From positions 1-50,215 of the forward strand of contig JAUNSN010000005.1 in NCBI GenBank assembly GCA_030539175.1: 50,215 nucleotides of DNA, read 5' to 3'. The stretch is from a bacterium (GTDB lineage Bacteria; Bacillota_I; Bacilli_A; RF39; UBA660). Numbering within the stretch: the first letter of the stretch is position 1; every line of letters starts with the position of its first letter. This document shows, piece after piece, positions 3,679 through 14,830 of this stretch. The notes under the pieces are model-generated. The model saw only the letters and a list, made by a program, of their open reading frames with translations, was not told where the DNA came from and ran no database searches. Position numbers and translations under genes: made by a program.

Positions 3679-3873
3679 GTGCCTAGCAACCCAGGGTTTG
3701 TAGAATTAGGAAATCGACTAGGGAAAGAAACATTATTTTCTTACATAAAGAATTTTGGATTCGGTGCAAAAACCAATGTTGACTTAAATGGTGAAGCTAA
3801 TGGTATACTGTTTCCATTATCCAAAGTTGGTCCTTTAGAATTAGCCACTACTGCCTTTGGTCAAGGTATATAG
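3679..3873 (+). pseudogene. penicillin-binding protein transpeptidase fragment
   Basis: This 64-codon stretch (SNPGFVELGNRLGKE, FGFGAKTNVDLNGEA, VGPLELATTAFGQGI) is the part of a class B PBP (PBP2/FtsI/SpoVD type) transpeptidase domain from the SxN motif to just before the KTG motif. In the family the text before SNPGF would supply the first Ser of SxN; here it is Pro, and further upstream the sequence is unrelated and hits a stop at 3655. After GQGI the family continues with residues like xVTPLQ; here the next codon is TAG. The fragment is therefore cut at both ends. It has no ribosome binding site of its own. It most likely marks the chromosomal gene used as integration target, a hybrid attachment site beside recombinase 1. 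Typical PBPs exceed 500 aa, so it is non-functional. Confidence 0.8.
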
Positions 3874-4887: not shown

Positions 4888-5772
4888 TTATTTTTGATTT
4901 TCAATTAAATGAATTAATTCTGATGTAGCATAATTTGGAAAATTATTCTTATTAGTTATCATTATTAAGTTTACTGGCTGAAATTCATCTTTCAGTTTTA
5001 TTTCATAAAGTTCTTTTTTTTCTAAATTATCTTGAATAAACTCTTTAATTGCAATCCCTATTCCAAATCCTTCTTTTACAAATTCATATACTAGAGAATG
5101 GCTAGCAAGATTAATGTAGGCTCTATATTGATTTTTATCTGAAAACACAAAGTTAGTTTGAATAGGATTAATTGTATTTAATATTAATTTTTCATTTTCA
5201 ATATCTTTAAATTCAATTTTATGTGTAGAATATTTTTTGTACTTTTCGTTTCCAATTAAACAATAATGTAGTTTTTTGAAGTTATAAACTTTTAACCCTT
5301 CCAATTTTTTATCATCATCACCAGCATATATAATTGCTATATCTATTGCTCCGTTTTTTACCATATTAATTAAATTAGGTGTATAACTTTCTTCAATAGA
5401 TATATTGATGTTTGGAAATGATAGAGAATATTTTTTTAAGTAATCCATTAAAAAATATTTCAAAATTGTATTACTTGTTCCTATTTTAATTTCTCCAATA
5501 TCAAGTTTGGTTATGTTTGAAAATTGATTTTCTGCCTCATATATTTGTTCAACAGCAGGTCGAATATAGTTATAAAAATTTTTACCTTCTTCAGTTAAAC
5601 TAATGCCTTTTTTACTTCTGAAAAACAGATTACCATTTAATTGATTTTCTAAGTTTTTAATTGTTTTAGTAACTGCAGGTTGGGATATTGATAATTTTTT
5701 TGATGCTTCTGTTATACTATTGCAATTTGCTACAACATAAAAAACACGATATAATTCAAAATTTATATTCAT
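4888..5772 (-). CDS. LysR-family transcriptional regulator
   Basis: A full-length 294-aa LysR regulator. The N-terminal winged HTH is intact (ITEASKKLSISQPAVTKTIK at about residues 19-38, then RSKKGISLTEEGKNFY). The rest is the two-lobed periplasmic-binding-like effector domain (IGTSNTILKYFL, IAIIYAGDDD, then VYEFVKEGFGIGIAI near the end). It has its own GGAGGACG ribosome binding site and a promoter facing left. It is divergent from the radical SAM peptide operon, the classic layout for a LysR protein controlling the adjacent operon and itself. The co-inducer is unknown. Confidence 0.92.
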   Translation of the reverse strand: MNINFELYRVFYVVANCNSITEASKKLSISQPAVTKTIKNLENQLNGNLFFRSKKGISLTEEGKNFYNYIRPAVEQIYEAENQFSNITKLDIGEIKIGTSNTILKYFLMDYLKKYSLSFPNINISIEESYTPNLINMVKNGAIDIAIIYAGDDDKKLEGLKVYNFKKLHYCLIGNEKYKKYSTHKIEFKDIENEKLILNTINPIQTNFVFSDKNQYRAYINLASHSLVYEFVKEGFGIGIAIKEFIQDNLEKKELYEIKLKDEFQPVNLIMITNKNNFPNYATSELIHLIENQK

Positions 5773-5840: not shown

Positions 5841-5868
5841 TGCTTTATCCATAACTTTTTGTTATAAT
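5840..5868 (+). promoter_or_regulatory. promoter of the peptide operon
   Basis: TTGCTT and TATAAT are separated by 17 bases, with an extended -10 (TGT before TATAAT). It is the best promoter upstream of the 26-aa peptide ORF and leaves a leader of about 65 bases. Confidence 0.75.
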
Positions 5869-5939
5869 GAATATGAGAAATTTGTATAAAAAGACTTGTA
5901 AATGTTATTGTATAATATTATTCGAGAGGAGGGTGTGCA

Positions 5940-6020
5940 ATGAAATCTTTAAATAAAAAAGTTGTTGTTAAATCTGAAAATGTTACAACAAGTAATGCTT
6001 CTTGTCATTACCATATCTAA
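5940..6020 (+). CDS. 26-aa candidate RiPP precursor peptide
   Basis: A short ORF with an excellent ribosome binding site (GAGGAGGG at 5925-5932). The peptide has a basic N-terminus (MKSLNKKVVVK), a polar middle (SENVTTSN) and a distinctive C-terminus, ASCHYHI. One Cys, two His and one Tyr in the last five residues form a plausible core for radical SAM modification, such as a Cys thioether or aromatic/His crosslink. It is the first gene after a LysR-controlled promoter and lies 81 bases before a radical SAM/SPASM enzyme, the usual precursor position. A 12-bp stem-loop separates the two. No homologous family is known to me, so precursor status rests on context and composition. It could instead be a leader peptide controlling the operon. 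Confidence 0.65.
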   Translation: MKSLNKKVVVKSENVTTSNASCHYHI

Positions 6021-6048: not shown

Positions 6049-6076
6049 ATATAGGGGAATCCTAATTCCCCTATAT
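6049..6076 (+). promoter_or_regulatory. 12-bp stem-loop between precursor and maturase
   Basis: ATATAGGGGAAT and ATTCCCCTATAT pair perfectly around a CCTA loop. No T-run follows, so it is not a standard terminator. Such hairpins between a RiPP precursor and its enzyme often protect the short transcript or limit read-through, so that more peptide than enzyme is made (inference). Confidence 0.7.
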
Positions 6077-6101: not shown

Positions 6102-7460
6102 ATGTTTTTTGTAAGAGAAGTTGAATTTATCGAATATGAAAATTCAGAATATATAATGATTAATTTAATTAATGGTGCAACAGATATTATTGAAAAGAGT
6201 ATATATGAAAAAATCATTAATAAAGAATTTGATAATTTAAATCAAGATGTCATTGATAATTTGCTTGAAAGAAAGTATTTGTTTTCTGATGAGAATGAAT
6301 ATAATAAATTTATTGAAAGTATTGATACAAAGTTAGAAGACTTGGAAAAAAGAGCTACTCCGAACTTTTTAGTTGTTCCTAGTTATGCTTGTAATTTGCA
6401 TTGTATTTATTGTTATGAGCAAACATATATGATAAAGGGTACTACTGATATTGATCCCTTAAAAATGGTTGATTTGCAGTTTGAACGTATTGATAAAATA
6501 ATGAAACAATATGAAACTAAATATGGAAAAACAAAAGAAGATATACGTATTACAATAATGGGGGGAGAACCATTGTTAAGGTGTAATATTAAAACAATAG
6601 CATATATTTTTGAACAAACAAAGAAAAGAAATTATTCATTAGATATTGTTTCTAATGGAGTTGATTTAAATTACTATATTGAATTATTTAATGAGTATAA
6701 AGACACCCTTAAACATATACAAATTACCGTTGATGGTGTAAAAGATATTCATGATAAAAGAAGAATTTTCCATGATGGTAGAGGAAGTTTTGATTTAATA
6801 ATGAATAATATTAAATTATCACTTCAGAATAATATTCAAATAGTGTTAAGAGTTAATGTTGATTCAACCAACATTAATGAATTATCTGATTTAGCTGATA
6901 CATTAATAAAAGAGTTTAATTACGATAAGAATTTATTACCATATTTATATTTATTACAAGATGGTGGATGTTCTGGAGAATCAAATATTGTAAATGAAAA
7001 AGTGGGAATTGAAAAGATATTTGAATTAGAAGATAAAAATCCTAACATGGCAATATTTAGAAAAAAATTTCATCCAGCAGATTTTATTGAAAGTATTTTC
7101 AATGATGTTCCTTATCAACCCGTTTTGAGACATTGTGGTGCAGCAAAAAATCAATTTATTTTAGATTGCAAATCAAATGTATATAAATGTTGGCATGGTA
7201 TAGGAAATAACGGTTATAGAGTGGGAACATTTTATCCTAAATATGAAATAGATGATGAAATAATTAATCAATGGTTTAATAGAAGTGTTAAAGTTTTAGA
7301 CAAATGTAAAAATTGTAAATATAGATATATTTGTGGAACTGGATGTCCTGCTGCTAAACATATGAGTGATGATAAAATGGATATTACTTCACCTAGTTGT
7401 GTTGAATATAATGAATTAATAAAAACAATTATGTTAGAAAAATTAAAAAGAATTAAATAA
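6102..7460 (+). CDS. radical SAM/SPASM peptide maturase
   Basis: 452 aa. The N-terminal ~85 residues (VREVEFIEYENSEYIMI onward) are small and mixed, the size and place of a peptide-recognition domain. The radical SAM core follows with CNLHCIYC at residues 97-104, giving the CxxxCxxC 4Fe-4S motif, and MGGEPLL for SAM binding. The C-terminal SPASM region has HCGAAKN, then CKSNVYKC, then CKNCKYRYICGTGC and a last Cys in SPSC, enough for two auxiliary clusters. Such enzymes typically modify ribosomal peptides, making thioether or carbon-carbon bonds or epimers, or act as sulfatase maturases; no sulfatase is nearby. The 26-aa ORF just upstream is the obvious substrate. The start at 6102 has an AAGAGGTG site. 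Confidence 0.9.
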   Translation: MFFVREVEFIEYENSEYIMINLINGATDIIEKSIYEKIINKEFDNLNQDVIDNLLERKYLFSDENEYNKFIESIDTKLEDLEKRATPNFLVVPSYACNLHCIYCYEQTYMIKGTTDIDPLKMVDLQFERIDKIMKQYETKYGKTKEDIRITIMGGEPLLRCNIKTIAYIFEQTKKRNYSLDIVSNGVDLNYYIELFNEYKDTLKHIQITVDGVKDIHDKRRIFHDGRGSFDLIMNNIKLSLQNNIQIVLRVNVDSTNINELSDLADTLIKEFNYDKNLLPYLYLLQDGGCSGESNIVNEKVGIEKIFELEDKNPNMAIFRKKFHPADFIESIFNDVPYQPVLRHCGAAKNQFILDCKSNVYKCWHGIGNNGYRVGTFYPKYEIDDEIINQWFNRSVKVLDKCKNCKYRYICGTGCPAAKHMSDDKMDITSPSCVEYNELIKTIMLEKLKRIK

Positions 7461-7490
7461 AATATAGTATAATAAATGGAGGTGATTAAA

Positions 7491-9509
7491 TTGGATAGAA
7501 AAGAAAAAAAGGTACTTACTTTAGGAATTTTTGCACACGCAAATGCAGGTAAGACTACTATTACTGAACATTTACTGTATCATACTGATGTTATTGATAA
7601 TGTTGGTAGAGTAGATACTGGAAATACAGTAACTGATAATATGAAAGTTGAACAGGAAAGAGGAATAACAGTAAGGGACTCTCTAGTTTCTTTTGAACTA
7701 GGAGATAAAACTATTCAACTAATAGACACTCCAGGTCATGTTGATTTTTCAGCAGAAGTTGAAAGAGCTATAAGTGTTTTAGATGGAGCAGTTTTAGTTA
7801 TTTCTGGGGTTGAGGGGTTAGAAGCACAAACTTATACAATTTGGAGAGCTTTAAAAGAAAAAAATGTTCCAGTAATTATATTCATTAATAAAATGGATAG
7901 AAAAGGAGCAGATTTTTCAAGAGTAGTTGCTGAACTACAAAACAATTTAAATGTTAATACAATCACACTTATGAACGTTATTCAAAATAGTGATTCATCA
8001 TTAACTATTCAACAATCAAAACTTGAGGATATAGTTGAAGAAGTGTCAATGGTAGATGATGATATACTTGGAATGTATATTAATGGTGAAGATTTAGATA
8101 CAGATAAACTTGCAAAAAAAATAATTGAGTTATCTCATACTTGTAAATTATTTCCAGTAATTGGAGGTAGTGCTTTAATTGATGTTGGAATTGAAGATTT
8201 AGTTTCTTCTATTTCAAGATATATTCCAGCCACAAAAAAGGATTTGGAAAAAGATTTATCAGCTTATGTGTTTACTATAAGAGTTGATGAAAATGGTAAA
8301 AATGCCTATGTTAAAGTTCTTAATGGTAGCATTGGATTAAGAGATGTTATAACTACTGGAACTGATACTACTAATAAAATAAAAAGTTTGTATATTGCAG
8401 ACGGAACAAAATTAGTTCCAACAGATAGAGTTTATAGTGGAGATATTGCGGTTATTAATGGTCTTGATGTAAAATGTGGTCAAATAATTGGAAATTCAAC
8501 AGGTATGGATAAATATATAAGTTTTGTTAAACCTTTACTGACAATGGAAGTTAATCCTATAAATAAAAATGAAACTATTGAACTTATGAATGCTTTAAGA
8601 ATATTAAATGAGGAAGATCCATATTTAAATGTTAGATATAATGAAAGAACTAGTTCTATATATTGTAGTTTGATGGGTGAAGTTCAAGCACAAATTGTAA
8701 AGACTTTATTAGAAGAAAGATTTGGAATTCAGGTTAATATAGAAAATCCTGTTATTATTCATAAAGAAGTTCCAACAGTTTCTGCTAATGCAAAGGCAAC
8801 ATATACAACCGTATCTGGAATAGGATTGGAAGTTACACCGCTTGAAAGAGGAAGTGGGTTTAGATATGTTTCAAAAGTATCAACTGACTTTTTACATTTA
8901 AAATATCAAAGACAAGTTGAAAGATTAATAAATTATTATTCTCAGCAAGGATTAAATGGATGGGAATTAACTGATATGGAAGTAGCTTTGGTAGATGGAC
9001 AATTTGATTCGATGGGAAGTGATCCAATGCACTTTAATATTATTACCCCATTGGCTTTATTTAGATGTTTAAAGCAAGCAAAAATGAAATTGCTTGAACC
9101 AATTTCACAATTTATATTGACTACACCAGAGAAAGATTTGAGTGGAGTTATAAAATTATTGTCATCTAAAAATAGTACATATGAAATTGCAAAACATTTT
9201 GATGGAGTAATTACTATTGAAGGAGAGGCCCCAGCATCTAATATGATGAATTTTCCTCTTGAGTTATCAATGTCAACTAGTGGTAGGGGTACATATACAT
9301 CATCTATATCAAGGTATGAGATAAGTAGAAATCAAGATGCTTCAATAGAATTTATAGGAGCAGATCCAAGAAACGAAACAACTTTTGTTATTAATGATAT
9401 GAAAGCAAGTATGGAACCGTTAGATAAGACTTTGATGAAAAAGAAAAAAGAAAGCCGTTCTAAATTTGCTAGACAGCAAAAAGAAAAGGATTATGGCATT
9501 AAAAGATAG
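7491..9509 (+). CDS. TetM-like ribosomal protection GTPase, atypical
   Basis: A translational GTPase of the EF-G/Tet(M) class with the normal domain order: G1 AHANAGKTT, G2 ERGITV, G3 DTPGHVDF, G4 NKMD, then the EF-G-like domains ending SGRGTYTSSISRYE. Length is 672 aa from the TTG at 7491, chosen because GGAGGTG (7478-7484) sits seven bases before it; the ATG at 7476 lies ahead of that site. Tet(M) has about 639 aa. Family members dislodge tetracyclines from the 30S A-site. In G1 the usual Asp (AHVDAGKTT) is Asn, and the C-terminal tail is long and basic (MKKKKESRSKFARQQKEK), so this is a divergent branch. Its place between a radical SAM maturase and tailoring enzymes makes immunity to a ribosome-targeting product as likely as tetracycline resistance (inference). 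Confidence 0.85.
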   Translation: MDRKEKKVLTLGIFAHANAGKTTITEHLLYHTDVIDNVGRVDTGNTVTDNMKVEQERGITVRDSLVSFELGDKTIQLIDTPGHVDFSAEVERAISVLDGAVLVISGVEGLEAQTYTIWRALKEKNVPVIIFINKMDRKGADFSRVVAELQNNLNVNTITLMNVIQNSDSSLTIQQSKLEDIVEEVSMVDDDILGMYINGEDLDTDKLAKKIIELSHTCKLFPVIGGSALIDVGIEDLVSSISRYIPATKKDLEKDLSAYVFTIRVDENGKNAYVKVLNGSIGLRDVITTGTDTTNKIKSLYIADGTKLVPTDRVYSGDIAVINGLDVKCGQIIGNSTGMDKYISFVKPLLTMEVNPINKNETIELMNALRILNEEDPYLNVRYNERTSSIYCSLMGEVQAQIVKTLLEERFGIQVNIENPVIIHKEVPTVSANAKATYTTVSGIGLEVTPLERGSGFRYVSKVSTDFLHLKYQRQVERLINYYSQQGLNGWELTDMEVALVDGQFDSMGSDPMHFNIITPLALFRCLKQAKMKLLEPISQFILTTPEKDLSGVIKLLSSKNSTYEIAKHFDGVITIEGEAPASNMMNFPLELSMSTSGRGTYTSSISRYEISRNQDASIEFIGADPRNETTFVINDMKASMEPLDKTLMKKKKESRSKFARQQKEKDYGIKR

Positions 9510-9518
9510 GGGGCTATA

Positions 9519-10535
9519 ATGAAATCATTTTGTAATAAAAAACCATACGACTATTATGAAGAACTAGAAAAGTTAGAAATTGATATATACAATCAATTGT
9601 ATTTTGATAGTTCAAGTATAAATAGTGTTGAAAAAATAAATTACAATACTTTAAAAGAAAAAACAATAAATGTTTTTGAAGATTATGATTATAATCAACC
9701 ACAAAATATTTTTATTATAAAAAATTTTGAAGGTAAGATTATTGTTGGTAGAAAAATTAGATCAGTTTTACGTATTGAAAATAAAATTAACGCAATAAAT
9801 TGTAGTATGATAACTGCCCCTATGATTTTGGGAGTTTTAGTAAAAAGAGCAAAAACTAATCGTAAAATAAGAATTGAATATTATCCTTTTTCCGATTCTG
9901 AAAAAAAATATGTTTTTGACAAAATAAAAAATGATAGGACCTTTGATATTTATTATCCATATAAATATCGTGATTTTTATACAGAAAAAGAAGAAAACTC
10001 TCCAGAAACTGGGTGGTCTTTCAATCCTGATAAAAAAGAATATTTGGGATATGGTGAGGTACATTTAAGAAATTTCACAACTACTTATTTTAAAAATAAA
10101 TCTTTAGATAATAAAATAGTTTATGATCCTGCTTGTTCAACAGGAGAATTCTTGAATGAATTTAAAAGTTATCATAAAAACTGTTATACAATAGGACATG
10201 ATTTAAGCAAAGAGATGATAGATTATGCAAAAGATTATGTAGATGAGGCATTATGTTGTAATGCAATCGATTCACCATTAAAAGATAATAGTGTGGATAT
10301 TATGTTTTTAAGATTTTTAAATTCAGAAGTAGTTACAACTCGTCTAGCATATAGAATTATGAAAAAATTGTTGTCAAAAATGAAAAAAGGTTCTTTAATT
10401 GTTTGTTTTGGACATACCCCAGTATTAATAACTAAAGAATGGTTTGAAAAAAATGGTTTGAAAAGTATAATATGTAATGGTTATGATGAAGAGAGAAATG
10501 CCATATTTCAATATTATGTTTTTGAGGTGCAATAA
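9519..10535 (+). CDS. SAM-dependent transferase with a long N-terminal domain
   Basis: 338 aa. Residues about 200-330 are a class I methyltransferase fold with motif I YDPACSTGEF (202-211), acidic GHDLSKEMIDYA and NSVDIMFLRF. Residues 1-190 are a separate region (RSVLRIENKINAINCSMITA, then ETGWSFNP and YLGYGEVHLRNFT) unlike common methyltransferases. This organisation reminds me of enzymes that move the aminocarboxypropyl group of SAM (isonocardicin synthase and MccD type), but I cannot confirm that by eye. It starts nine bases after the GTPase gene and its stop codon overlaps the next start (TAATG), so it is part of the operon. The peptide product or the ribosome are both possible substrates. 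Confidence 0.75.
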   Translation: MKSFCNKKPYDYYEELEKLEIDIYNQLYFDSSSINSVEKINYNTLKEKTINVFEDYDYNQPQNIFIIKNFEGKIIVGRKIRSVLRIENKINAINCSMITAPMILGVLVKRAKTNRKIRIEYYPFSDSEKKYVFDKIKNDRTFDIYYPYKYRDFYTEKEENSPETGWSFNPDKKEYLGYGEVHLRNFTTTYFKNKSLDNKIVYDPACSTGEFLNEFKSYHKNCYTIGHDLSKEMIDYAKDYVDEALCCNAIDSPLKDNSVDIMFLRFLNSEVVTTRLAYRIMKKLLSKMKKGSLIVCFGHTPVLITKEWFEKNGLKSIICNGYDEERNAIFQYYVFEVQ

Positions 10536-11641
10536 TGAGTAATAGTTGTCGTGCTACAAAATTGATTATTGAAAAAAAATGTATATTAAAAAATATAGAA
10601 AATATACAAAAATATTTAGGCAATAATGTGGAAATAATGCCGATTCTGAAAGCAAATGCGTATGGAACTTATATAAACAAAGAGTTGGATATAATAGAAA
10701 AGTTCAATATTGTAGGTGTATCTTTAGTAGATGAGGCAATAGAGATAAGAAAGTGTGGTTATAAAGGTGATATTTTAATTTTATATCCACCAGTAGAGTC
10801 AGAAATTGAAGATATTATAAAATATGATTTAACAATAAATGGATGTAATTTTTCTTTTTTAAAATTACTTAATAATAAGTTAAATAGAAAAATTAAAATT
10901 CATTTAGAAATAGAAACAGGAATGGGAAGAACTGGTGTATTAATATCCAAACTAAATGAATATTTAAAAGAAATGAAAACATTAGATAAAATTGAATTGG
11001 AAGGACTATTTACTCACTTCTCATCAAGTAGTAAAGATGAAGAATTTTCAAAAGTTCAAATATTTAGATTTGAAAAAGCCCTAAAAATTATAAATGAAAA
11101 TAATCTTTATCCAAAATTCATTCATATTTGTAATAGCGGTGCGATTTTTAATTATAAAGAATATCTATATAATATGGTACGTATAGGAATTATGATATAT
11201 GGTTATTATCCTAATCCAAAATTTAAAGATATTATAAAACTATATCCTTCAATGACATTAAAAACTAGCATTAGTTTTATAAAAAAAATAGAACCTGGAG
11301 ATACTGTTGGATATAACAAAAATTTTGTAGCAAAACGAGATACAATAGTAGCTACTATTCCATTTGGTTTTGGAGATGGATTTATAAGTCTTGAAACTGG
11401 ACAAGCTTATGTTTTAATTAATAATAAAAAAGCTCCAATAATTGGAATTTGTATGGATAATATGATGTTAGACATTACTGATATTCCAGATGTTGATTAT
11501 AATACAGAAGTATATATATGGGATAATAAGAATATTACTGTTGAACAAATAACTGATTGGTGTAAAGATTTATGTAATTATGAAATATTAAGTTCATTAT
11601 CTGATAGGATACCAAGATATATAGTTGGTGATAAAAGATGA
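10535..11641 (+). CDS. alanine racemase-fold PLP enzyme
   Basis: 368 aa, close to the usual length of Alr. PILKANAYG carries the PLP-binding Lys39; HLEIETGMGRTG, ICNSGAIFN and MVRIGIMIYG follow the fold-III barrel; the C-terminal domain begins at TVGYNKNFVAKRDTIVATIPFGFGDGF with the catalytic Tyr near residue 260, and ICMDNMMLDITD also fits Alr. The reaction would be L/D-alanine interconversion, or racemisation or decarboxylation of another amino acid. It overlaps genes on both sides (TAATG and ATGA), so it belongs to the peptide operon and is not a housekeeping gene. It may make a D-amino acid for the product, or be a spare copy if the product inhibits alanine racemase (both inference). Confidence 0.88.
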   Translation: MSNSCRATKLIIEKKCILKNIENIQKYLGNNVEIMPILKANAYGTYINKELDIIEKFNIVGVSLVDEAIEIRKCGYKGDILILYPPVESEIEDIIKYDLTINGCNFSFLKLLNNKLNRKIKIHLEIETGMGRTGVLISKLNEYLKEMKTLDKIELEGLFTHFSSSSKDEEFSKVQIFRFEKALKIINENNLYPKFIHICNSGAIFNYKEYLYNMVRIGIMIYGYYPNPKFKDIIKLYPSMTLKTSISFIKKIEPGDTVGYNKNFVAKRDTIVATIPFGFGDGFISLETGQAYVLINNKKAPIIGICMDNMMLDITDIPDVDYNTEVYIWDNKNITVEQITDWCKDLCNYEILSSLSDRIPRYIVGDKR

Positions 11642-12591
11642 AAAATATAAGAGTAATTGCATTTTCAAGAAGTTTAAAAATGATATGTGATAAAAATATA
11701 AATTTATCTAAAAACAAGCTCGAATCTTTAGGATATAATGTATCATTTTCTAAAAATTCAAGTGTGTGTGATTTGTTTATTTCTTCCAGTATAAGTTCAA
11801 GAGTATCGGATTTAAATGATGCAATTTGTGATAATAATATTGATATTATTCTTTCTGTTTTGGGAGGCTATAATAGTAATCAATTATTAGATTATATAGA
11901 TTATGATTTGATTAAAAAAAATCCGAAAAAGATTTGTGGATATTCAGATATTACTGCACTATTGAATGCTATATATTCTCAAACTGGTATTATTACTTAT
12001 TTAGGTCCAAATTTTCATAGTTTTGCAATGAAAGAAGGCTTGGATGGAACAATAGAATCATTTCAAACTGTAATTAATGGTAATGAGTATGTTTTAAGTG
12101 ATCCTGAATTTTATAGTAGTGACAAATGGTATGATGACCAAGAAAATAGAAAATTTATAAAAAATAATGGGATGTATATTATAAATGAAGGACAAGCAGA
12201 AGGATTAATAGTTGGAGGTAATCTATGTACTTTTAATTTATTACAAGGCACAAAATATATGCCAGATTTGACAGATAAAATTTTGTTTTTAGAAGATGAT
12301 TCATTAGTTGGTAAAGAGTATCCATATGAATTTGATAGAAATTTACAATCGTTAATTCAACAACCTAATTTTAATAAAGTAAAAGCAATAATAATTGGGC
12401 GGACACAAGATGCAACTGAAATGAATATAACAAAATGGAAAAAGATATTAAAATCAAAAAAAGAATTAAAAAAAATACCAATTATTATAAATACTAATTT
12501 TGGTCATACTACACCAATGGCTACTATTCCGATAGGAGGAAAATGTCGTATAGATACATTTGTTGAAAATAAAATAATAATCAATTGTTAG
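11638..12591 (+). CDS. S66-family serine peptidase, MccF-like
   Basis: 317 aa with the S66 hallmarks: VLGGYNSNQLLDYIDYDLI, the nucleophile in CGYSDIT (about Ser103), a Glu in ILFLEDD (about 219) and a His in FGHTTP (about 289), the Ser-Glu-His triad of LD-carboxypeptidases. GGYNSNQLL and the long middle insert fit the MccF subgroup better than LdcA. MccF cleaves the peptide-nucleotide antibiotic microcin C and its processed form, giving immunity; LdcA trims murein tetrapeptides. There is no signal peptide, so it acts in the cytoplasm. Four-base ATGA overlap with the racemase gene. I favour self-protection by hydrolysing the mature product, or recycling of it, by context. Confidence 0.87.
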   Translation: MKNIRVIAFSRSLKMICDKNINLSKNKLESLGYNVSFSKNSSVCDLFISSSISSRVSDLNDAICDNNIDIILSVLGGYNSNQLLDYIDYDLIKKNPKKICGYSDITALLNAIYSQTGIITYLGPNFHSFAMKEGLDGTIESFQTVINGNEYVLSDPEFYSSDKWYDDQENRKFIKNNGMYIINEGQAEGLIVGGNLCTFNLLQGTKYMPDLTDKILFLEDDSLVGKEYPYEFDRNLQSLIQQPNFNKVKAIIIGRTQDATEMNITKWKKILKSKKELKKIPIIINTNFGHTTPMATIPIGGKCRIDTFVENKIIINC

Positions 12592-12602
12592 GGGGATAGG
12601 AA

Positions 12603-13370
12603 ATGAAAACTATTGTAGAAAATCCAAGTTTATATGATTTGCTTTATTTAGATATTAGGGAAGATATTGAAATGTATAGAGGAATATTAAAGGAAAGTGC
12701 AAATATTTTAGAATTTGGAGCTGGAACAGGAAGAATTACAATTCCATTAGCAAAAGATGGACACAATATTTGTGCTGTTGATTTATCAAAAGAAATGTTA
12801 ACAGGCTTAAAAGAAAAAATATCAAGTGATCCGTTATTATTTAAAAATATAAAACCTGTTTTAGCTAATATGTGTAGTTATCAATCTAATATAAAATATG
12901 ATGCTGTTATTATTCCATTGACTTCTTTTAATTATTTATTGACTAAGGAGGAACAATTAGCTTGTCTTAAATCAGTAAGACAAGCATTATCTAGCAGTGG
13001 TTTTGCAATTATAGAATTACTATCAAAAAAAACTTTTTTAGATACTAACCAATCGAGTGATTTTACTTTTGTTAAAAGAATTAGTGTTGATAATAATTCA
13101 TATTATGATTACTACAGAATAACAAAATTAGATTTTAATAGTAGAACAATAACACAAAATAGACTTTTTAAATACTATAAAAATAATCAATATATATCTT
13201 CTGAAGAATATTTATGGAATAATCGATTTGTTACAGTAGAAGATTTTACATTATTAGCAAATGAGGTTGGTTTAGAAATTGATGAAGTATATGGCAATTG
13301 TCAATTAGAAAAGTATAATGATGAAAGTGAAGATGTATTTGTAAAAGTTAGGGGGAAAAATAATGAATAA
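12603..13370 (+). CDS. class I SAM-dependent methyltransferase
   Basis: 255 aa with canonical motif I ILEFGAGTGRITIPLA (residues 36-51), acidic AVDLSKEML, motif IV-like YDAVIIPLTSFNYLL and post-motif SSGFAIIELL. It resembles small-molecule or peptide O/N-methyltransferases of the broad methyltransferase-25 type, and the substrate cannot be read. GGGGGATAGGA precedes the ATG. It overlaps the MORN gene by eight bases and lies eleven bases after the S66 gene, so it is the second SAM-dependent transferase of the operon. Confidence 0.85.
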   Translation: MKTIVENPSLYDLLYLDIREDIEMYRGILKESANILEFGAGTGRITIPLAKDGHNICAVDLSKEMLTGLKEKISSDPLLFKNIKPVLANMCSYQSNIKYDAVIIPLTSFNYLLTKEEQLACLKSVRQALSSSGFAIIELLSKKTFLDTNQSSDFTFVKRISVDNNSYYDYYRITKLDFNSRTITQNRLFKYYKNNQYISSEEYLWNNRFVTVEDFTLLANEVGLEIDEVYGNCQLEKYNDESEDVFVKVRGKNNE

Positions 13371-13707
13371 TGTTAAAAAAATTTATTATAAAGATGGCAA
13401 AGTTAAAAAAGAAATACCTTATGTTAATGGATTAAAGACTGGCAGAAGTAAATTGTATTATGAATCTGGAATTATTAAATGTGAAGTTGATTATACGGAT
13501 GGGAAAAAGAATGGATATGTTAGAACATATTATGAAGATGGAACAATTGAATCACAAGAAACATATAGTGATGGACAAAAAAATCATGATTTAATATGTT
13601 ATGACAGAATGGGTGCAATTTCATATTCAAGCAATTTAAATATAGATACTAGAGATAGTTTATGTGATTATCATGATTCATATTTTTTTGAAAGAAGACA
13701 TTTATAA
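13363..13707 (+). CDS. MORN-repeat protein
   Basis: 114 aa made mostly of MORN_2-type repeats: KIYYKDGKVKKEIPYVNG, KLYYESGIIKCEVDYTDGKK and RTYYEDGTIESQETYSDGQK, each with the Y-x-DG-x-hydrophobic pattern. Such repeats form beta-hairpin ladders and occur in YwqK-like proteins. There are no catalytic residues, signal peptide or membrane segment. It overlaps the methyltransferase start to end and precedes the aminopeptidase, so it is inside the peptide operon, perhaps as a scaffold or immunity component. The last 30 residues after the repeats are not recognisable. Confidence 0.7.
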   Translation: MNNVKKIYYKDGKVKKEIPYVNGLKTGRSKLYYESGIIKCEVDYTDGKKNGYVRTYYEDGTIESQETYSDGQKNHDLICYDRMGAISYSSNLNIDTRDSLCDYHDSYFFERRHL

Positions 13708-13723: not shown

Positions 13724-14830
13724 ATGAAAGTAGATGGAATATTAAATTATTCTTTGAATATTAAACCTGGTGAAAAAATTTTTATATTTGCAGATGATAA
13801 ATCAAAGGATTATTGCAATTTGTTATGTGATAAAATTGTTGGTATGGGTGCAATTCCGTTCGTTTTATGGAATGACTTCACATTTAATGAATCATTAATA
13901 AATTATAAAAATGATAAAGTTTTAAGAGAATTATATACAATGTATGAACCAATGATTGATTTATGTGATGTTGCAATTATGCTTGATAATAATTTGGAAA
14001 CTTATTGTGAACATGGAATTAGTTCAGATGATTTGTTGAATTTTAAAAATAAGTATTATTTAAAAATATTTAAAAAAATTATGAATTTTAAAAGATGGGT
14101 ATATTTAAGATATCCACAAAAAGAGTTAGCAGAACTTTATGGATTAAGTTATGAAGATCATGTGAAATTATTAGAAGATGTATCTAATTTTGATTATAGT
14201 AGTTTGTCAAAATCAGCAACACTTTTGAAAAATAAATTAGATACTACTAATAAAATCCGTGTTGTTCAAGGCTTAACAAATGTTGAATTTTCTAAATCTG
14301 GTATTTCTTCTGAAGTTTGCTGTGGAAAATTAAATTTACCAGATGGAGAAGTTTTTACAGCTCCTGAAAAGCATTCAATGAATGGTATAATTAATTTCAA
14401 TGTTGATTCTTTCTTCAGAGGGAATGTATATAAAAATATTATTGTTGAAGTGAAAGATGGTAAAATAATTAATTCTTCTTGTAATATTAGTGAAGAGTTT
14501 AAAAAAATATTGGATTCCGATGCAGGTGTTAGATATTTTGGAGAATTTGCTTTTGGATTAAACCCATTTATTAAAAGAAATTATAATGATAATTTATTTA
14601 ATGAAAAAATGGCTGGAACTGTTCATTTTGCTGTAGGTTATCCACATTATCAAACTGATAATGGTAATGAAAGCCTGATTCATTGGGATTTGATTGTGGA
14701 TATGAGAGATAATAGTGCAATATATTTTGATGACACATTAATTCAAAAAGATGGAATTTTCGTTATTGATGAATTACAAGATTTAAATTTTAATAAAAGT
14801 AAAAATAAAACAAAAAAATTAACTTTATAA
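13724..14830 (+). CDS. M29-family metallo-aminopeptidase
   Basis: 368 aa from the ATG at 13724, chosen for the AAGGAGGAAAAA just before it; an in-frame ATG at 13664 lies inside the MORN gene. M29 (AmpS/thermophilic aminopeptidase) features are present: KPGEKIFIFADD near the start and, in the C-terminal half, the metal-binding sequences LPDGEVFTAPE, YFGEFAFGLNPF, GTVHFAVGYPH and IHWDLIVDM, which supply Glu, Glu, His, His and Asp for the two-metal centre. Family enzymes remove N-terminal residues from peptides. As the last gene of the operon it may trim the leader from the modified peptide (inference). A short terminator overlaps its end. Confidence 0.88.
   Translation: MKVDGILNYSLNIKPGEKIFIFADDKSKDYCNLLCDKIVGMGAIPFVLWNDFTFNESLINYKNDKVLRELYTMYEPMIDLCDVAIMLDNNLETYCEHGISSDDLLNFKNKYYLKIFKKIMNFKRWVYLRYPQKELAELYGLSYEDHVKLLEDVSNFDYSSLSKSATLLKNKLDTTNKIRVVQGLTNVEFSKSGISSEVCCGKLNLPDGEVFTAPEKHSMNGIINFNVDSFFRGNVYKNIIVEVKDGKIINSSCNISEEFKKILDSDAGVRYFGEFAFGLNPFIKRNYNDNLFNEKMAGTVHFAVGYPHYQTDNGNESLIHWDLIVDMRDNSAIYFDDTLIQKDGIFVIDELQDLNFNKSKNKTKKLTL

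Follow-up and report, generated by a model that had tools for sequence, protein, structure and literature searches.

A conserved 26-residue peptide gene heads a radical SAM RiPP-type cluster with predicted acp-transfer and ribosome-protection genes in uncultured gut bacteria

Nocardicin is a nonribosomal β-lactam, in whose pathway isonocardicin synthase transfers the 3-amino-3-carboxypropyl (acp) arm of SAM to a phenol and an epimerase acts on the arm. An excerpt of PMC6895100 describes the acp arm of SAM as used for nocardicin and microcin C; in microcin C, according to an excerpt of PMC12250964, MccD transfers this arm and MccF confers self-immunity. Among radical SAM maturases, PapB makes Cys-Asp/Glu thioethers in Cys-X3-Asp/Glu motifs and tolerates Cys-X0-6-Asp (excerpt of PMC9413430). 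Here we analyse a cluster in a 50,215-nucleotide stretch of bacterial DNA (the window) that sets a radical SAM maturase beside relatives of isonocardicin synthase and of TetM. No published account of this cluster, or of acp transfer in a radical SAM RiPP, was found in open-access papers. To our knowledge, crosslinking of a peptide by radical chemistry, acp transfer as in nocardicin and ribosome protection of the TetM type have not previously been seen together, and we know of no earlier radical SAM RiPP with acp transfer and ribosome-protection immunity.

The original prediction for this locus singled out a 26-residue ORF ending CHYHI, with a strong ribosome binding site and its own promoter, directly before a maturase gene. 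An ATG-to-TAA frame is present as described and encodes MKSLNKKVVVKSENVTTSNASCHYHI, whose C terminus, C22 H23 Y24 H25 I26, places one Cys, two His and one Tyr within the final five residues. An AGGAGG that is invariant across four clusters precedes it, and the radical SAM/SPASM ORF begins 81 nt past its stop codon. The precursor, the maturase and the elements around them are as follows:

4888–5772, − strand: divergent LysR-type regulator gene (Pfam HTH_1 and LysR_substrate), adjoining the precursor in 4/4 clusters
5851–5865, unstranded: ATAACTT-N3-GTTAT inverted repeat, recurring in 4/4, a probable LysR box
5911–5916, + strand: TATAAT, a possible −10 element, recurring in all four without a good −35
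5927–5932, + strand: AGGAGG, ribosome binding site of the precursor
5940–6020, + strand: RiPP precursor gene, 26 residues, with the leader at about 2–17 and the core, SNASCHYHI, at about 18–26 (boundary placed by conservation)
6049–6076, + strand: 12-bp hairpin in the precursor–maturase gap, with a similar hairpin in 4/4 sequences and no T-run
6102–7460, + strand: radical SAM/SPASM peptide maturase (CxxxCxxC at C97/C101/C104; SPASM Cys; Pfam Radical_SAM)

The precursor ORF sits upstream of the maturase in all four distinct clusters with a readable upstream region (the window, L010/G260, L012/G872 and L014/G271). These supply the only four distinct precursors known, MKSLNKKVVVKSENVTTSNASCHYHI (window), MKSVNKKVVVKAENVTTSNASCHYHI, MKSVNKKVVVKAENVKTSNASCHYHI and MKSINKKVVVSAKNVAASNASCHYHV; the L011 ORF is identical to the L010 copy, and in a fifth copy, G120, the sequence breaks within the maturase gene, with the upstream part missing. 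The orthologues, from three further genera, occupy the same location and end SNASCHYH(I/V). Alignment of small ORFs upstream of related radical SAM genes, the comparison on which the original prediction had staked itself, shows the frame and the C-terminal residues kept, with mostly silent changes. Residues 18–25 are invariant in 4/4, leaving V for I at position 26 as the sole difference within the final nine, against several changes in the leader half, indicating that the core is more constrained than the leader. Identity within the ORF is 81–94%, compared with 57–71% in the 170 nt upstream and 28–79% in the 75 nt downstream. Across six pairs, which are non-independent in both tests, pN/pS is 0.07–0.41, and neutral shuffling of the observed substitutions gives P values of 0.006–0.095, below 0.05 in four pairs and weakest for window–G872 (0.064) and window–G271 (0.095). 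Searched as an exact DNA pattern, NASCHYH turns up in 4 of 386 sampled family genomes, precisely those with a full maturase and acp-transferase; the reversed-pattern control had 0 matches in every row. The conserved coding frame and the invariant core are direct observations. With frame, length and SNASCHYH invariant in four genera beside a radical SAM/SPASM enzyme, the precursor-like reading holds, and the ORF very probably encodes the conserved precursor peptide of a RiPP cluster. Conservation of the core extends to its nucleotides, and some of the constraint could therefore act on RNA; a fold test with longer context gives no support, in the four sequences, for an RNA function common to the species.

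The surroundings of the ORF bear out the proposed promoter in part. The TATAAT and the ATAACTT-N3-GTTAT box recur, the latter ending 72–74 nt before the precursor ATG in 4/4 and adjoining the divergent LysR gene, whose orthologues in L013, L014 and L012 are 65–71% identical. However, a sigma-70 scan listed no + strand promoter just before the ORF, and the TATAAT was not among its calls. In the precursor–maturase gap, the G271 hairpin has a changed pair (GGGG/CCCC to AGGG/CCCT). Lacking a T-run in the scanned window, the hairpin was dismissed as an intrinsic terminator; it may protect the precursor message.

The maturase matches PF04055 and TIGR04085, and in a four-row alignment C97, C101, C104 and eight Cys between C345 and C433 are invariant. 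Its best NCBIfam models are RiPP maturases (CefB 145.7, Clo7bot 124.6, TIGR04463 122.4 and PapB 101 bits), with scores below every listed equivalog cut-off (best 145.7 bits against 600), and by curated cut-off it falls outside CefB, Clo7bot, PapB and SCIFF. Like these thioether systems, the locus sets a CxxxCxxC radical SAM enzyme with SPASM beside a short Cys-containing precursor; unlike them, it has a single Cys in 26 residues, scores far under the cut-offs and carries additional tailoring enzymes. Judged by its sequence, this is a RiPP-type system, yet one that no named maturase family covers. No PqqD-type (RRE) Pfam domain was found in the maturase at 0.01, its profiles aligning from residue 9, and the AlphaFold model from the four-row alignment was poor (mean pLDDT 47.8). 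The residue four past the Cys of SCHYHI is I/V; Cys22 could form a thioether with I/V26, with His or Tyr, or in the backward direction with Ser or Asn.

Eight of 291 same-family genomes match the maturase at 1e-20 or better: its own genome, G260 (82% identical), G271 (76%), G120 (partial, 71%) and four distant ones (29–32%). Scanning genome contigs with the maturase returned L010 (the G260 contig, Candidatus Pelethosoma merdigallinarum), L011 and L012 (the G872 contig). At E 1e-60 an order-wide search gave 3/385 (own genome, G260 and G271) and a phylum-wide search 1/392 (own genome), with no close maturase beyond the family in either set. Relatives were not found in viral contigs, and plasmid and phage records held distant maturases only (21–31% identical). 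The window's genome also carries a second, distant radical SAM/SPASM gene (G000:C18:13550–14707, L020; 28% identical).

Downstream of the maturase, the cluster continues with seven genes:

7476–9509, + strand: TetM-like ribosome-protection GTPase, probable self-immunity (NCBIfam tet_protect 534.8 bits; TetM 1.6e-100)
9519–10535, + strand: isonocardicin-synthase-like SAM acp transferase (PDB 8zhu, 7.1e-38)
10535–11641, + strand: alanine-racemase-family (Alr) PLP enzyme, candidate epimerase (TIGR00492 294 bits, cut-off 168)
11638–12591, + strand: S66 peptidase of the BA_5613/Lmo1638 MccF-like group, candidate for immunity or trimming, in 3/4 clusters
12603–13370, + strand: class I methyltransferase, candidate for N-terminal methylation (NCBIfam daptide_MTase 89 bits, cut-off 175), in 3/4
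13363–13707, + strand: MORN-repeat protein (PF07661), in 3/4
13724–14830, + strand: M29 aminopeptidase, candidate for leader trimming (PF02073; PDB AmpT/AmpS/PepS), in the cluster in 3/4

All four readable clusters share the precursor, maturase, GTPase, acp-transferase and Alr genes; the conserved cluster and the enzyme families of its members are observed directly. L012 runs LysR (divergent), precursor, maturase, TetM-like GTPase, acp-transferase, Alr, S66, M29, methyltransferase, MORN, and the window has the same gene set but with M29 at the end. The G260 cluster is split across two contigs and lacks M29, the only match in that genome being 37% identical with in-frame stops. Also split, the G271 cluster has acp-transferase, Alr and M29, with S66, methyltransferase and MORN absent from the cluster contig; S66 was not found in this genome, whose assembly is 82% complete. 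The G120 copy comprises the maturase end, the GTPase and the acp-transferase start. Gaps between cluster genes are short. No exporter gene was found among the conserved cluster members, and no second conserved small ORF able to feed the maturase was seen. Window genes from 14948 on (SpoVT-like, h194, AMP-ligase and sensor kinase) were excluded from the cluster because they have no orthologue in the others. Distant M29 paralogues lie at G260:C15:9497–10588 and G000:C2:9847–10926, with matched frames reported to contain in-frame stops.

The five cluster-bearing genomes represent five genera of one family; NCBI places Candidatus Pelethosoma in Mycoplasmatota. The different neighbourhoods of the clusters in five genera fit horizontal movement. 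In the window, a fragment at 3679–3873 that we take to be penicillin-binding-protein (PBP)-like lies behind a serine recombinase gene and breaks off at FGQG (L034:6497–7240 is the counterpart region), and on contig C43 of the same genome a PBP-like C-terminal part starts at TGQGVSVTP. The window also carries a coupling protein and a MobP2-like relaxase; together with the two PBP-like parts, these suggest that the cluster lies on a conjugative element inserted in a PBP gene. Upstream of the conjugation genes, window:23119–25980 encodes a large surface protein that carries a thioester domain along with six SpaA repeats. The G260 cluster is flanked by a short (L013:4783–5178) and a long (L030:5094–6263) copy of one gene start, MKKKLISIFMTI..., presumably of a D-Ala-D-Ala carboxypeptidase, as would result from entry of the cluster next to or into this gene.

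The protein encoded at 9519–10535 resembles a methyltransferase in Pfam and NCBIfam, and its sole strong PDB relative is isonocardicin synthase (Nat). The alignment covers residues 25–335, including the non-methyltransferase N-terminal part, and the other PDB matches have E values of 0.065 and above. The gene occurs in 5/386 family genomes, all five with the maturase. As in the nocardicin pathway, a predicted acp-transferase, homologous over nearly its whole length with the N-terminal domain included, has a racemase-type partner, paralleling the epimerase of the nocardicin arm; unlike in nocardicin, the arm would go onto a ribosomal peptide, and the candidate for epimerisation belongs to the alanine racemase family. 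This Alr is the second copy in the genome (the other, at G000:C43, is 28% identical), and it keeps in 4/4 the lysine of LKANAYG/VKANGYG/VKSFGYG and the tyrosine of VGYN/IGYN, which we take to be the PLP lysine and catalytic tyrosine of alanine racemase. The single Tyr of the precursor core, kept in 4/4, is the candidate acp acceptor, and on balance we favour acp transfer onto the core peptide. The methyltransferase at 12603–13370 has weak PDB matches to small-molecule and peptide methyltransferases, including the cypemycin N-terminal methyltransferase.

Elsewhere, Pantoea (L035:6537–8753) and Acinetobacter (L036:6715–8753) plasmids pair a YcaO gene with an isonocardicin-synthase-like gene. For L035, where a 43-residue ORF precedes the pair, the only PDB relative of the YcaO partner at E 0.1 is isonocardicin synthase (2.3e-15). 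The pair is possibly another peptide pathway with acp transfer.

The TetM-like GTPase is found in 5/5 clusters. It resembles the tetracycline ribosome-protection proteins TetM, TetO and OtrA in aligning with TetM full-length and keeping the GTPase motifs; unlike them, it scores under the tet_protect cut-off (534.8 against 775 bits), is tied to a RiPP cluster and has the domain IV tip FDSMGSDPMHF in 5/5 copies, where TetM has YYSPVSTPADF. The differing tip suggests a ligand other than tetracycline. The S66 peptidase is closest to the BA_5613/Lmo1638 group (PDB 5usd/4e5s, about 6e-101) rather than to the more distant MccF itself (1e-39 to 1e-42). Its membership of the MccF superfamily and the predicted acp transfer from SAM recall microcin C as described in the excerpt of PMC12250964. 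In contrast to microcin C, no MccB-type ThiF adenylyltransferase was found among the cluster genes, which include a radical SAM maturase, a racemase and ribosome protection.

From homology we infer the chemistry and target of the product, as we do each reaction, the reaction order and the self-immunity roles. The N-terminal part of the precursor (MKS-NKKVVV...) would serve as leader, with SNASCHYH(I/V) holding the core. The radical SAM/SPASM enzyme would crosslink the core, with a thioether between the lone Cys and a residue close by as the most likely link, after which the isonocardicin-synthase homologue would move the acp arm of SAM onto the Tyr phenol, or alternatively onto His or Cys. The dedicated racemase-family enzyme may invert the α-carbon of this arm, the M29 aminopeptidase would take off the leader and the second methyltransferase, where present, may cap the N terminus. 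A small peptide able to bind the ribosome close to its A site is the probable product, against which the TetM-like GTPase and the MccF-like peptidase would protect the producer. Taken whole, a crosslinked, acp-armed, ribosome-directed RiPP with dedicated self-immunity is the likely reading. For the ribosome as target, considered by itself, we put the chances slightly short of even. More tentative, with the balance somewhat against it, is a RiPP class of a new kind, in which a peptide of five to nine residues carries a Cys crosslink and O-(3-amino-3-carboxypropyl)tyrosine, its arm perhaps in the D configuration; this peptide would block the bacterial ribosome close to the A site, and a TetM-type GTPase dedicated to the cluster would counter it. 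What weighs most against an antibiotic product is the missing exporter gene, and Alr and S66 could serve cell-wall metabolism.

That absence would suit a metal-binding peptide with Cys, two His and the acp arm as ligands and a housekeeping-like GTPase and S66 peptidase. The Cys-His-Tyr-His core is rich in ligands, and nicotianamine-type chelators carry acp-type arms. Such a product would, however, leave a ribosome-protection GTPase in 5/5 clusters unexplained, and no metal transporter was seen in the cluster; we consider it unlikely. Slightly less likely still is an ordinary Cys-crosslinked ranthipeptide or sactipeptide beside an unrelated operon of acp-transferase, Alr and GTPase. Although the best maturase matches are Cys-directed families and a hairpin separates precursor from maturase, precursor, maturase and GTPase are contiguous in 4/4, the acp-transferase joins maturase and GTPase in the three clusters unsplit there (window, L012 and G120) and is seen only alongside the maturase (5/386 family genomes), and the intergenic gaps are short. 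Very improbable is a regulatory leader peptide, at whose CHYH codons a stalled ribosome would free the maturase ribosome binding site and so control the downstream resistance gene, as in the attenuation known from erm or cat: a TetM-like gene does lie downstream, minimum-free-energy folds in 3/4 sequences pair core codons with the maturase ribosome binding site and 87% of that site pairs inside the ORF in the window, but with longer context pairing is strong only in the window (shares paired inside the ORF 0.87, 0.00, 0.19 and 0.00) and does not exceed that of synonymous recodings (16, 141, 108 and 95 of 200 at or below native), so that attenuation found no support across species, while a terminator-like site is absent, the leader half of the peptide is conserved too and no alternative conserved small ORF able to supply the maturase was seen.

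The original prediction did not include the genes for acp-transferase, racemase, S66 peptidase and ribosome protection, and these alter the likely product. An easily overlooked 26-residue ORF can unlock the reading of a whole cluster. The hosts are uncultured gut bacteria with genomes of about 0.9–1.4 Mb, known here only as assembled genomes. If the favoured reading of a ribosome-directed RiPP is true, they would offer a testable ribosome-targeting peptide, together with a hint that some ribosome-protection genes provide the self-immunity of peptide producers.
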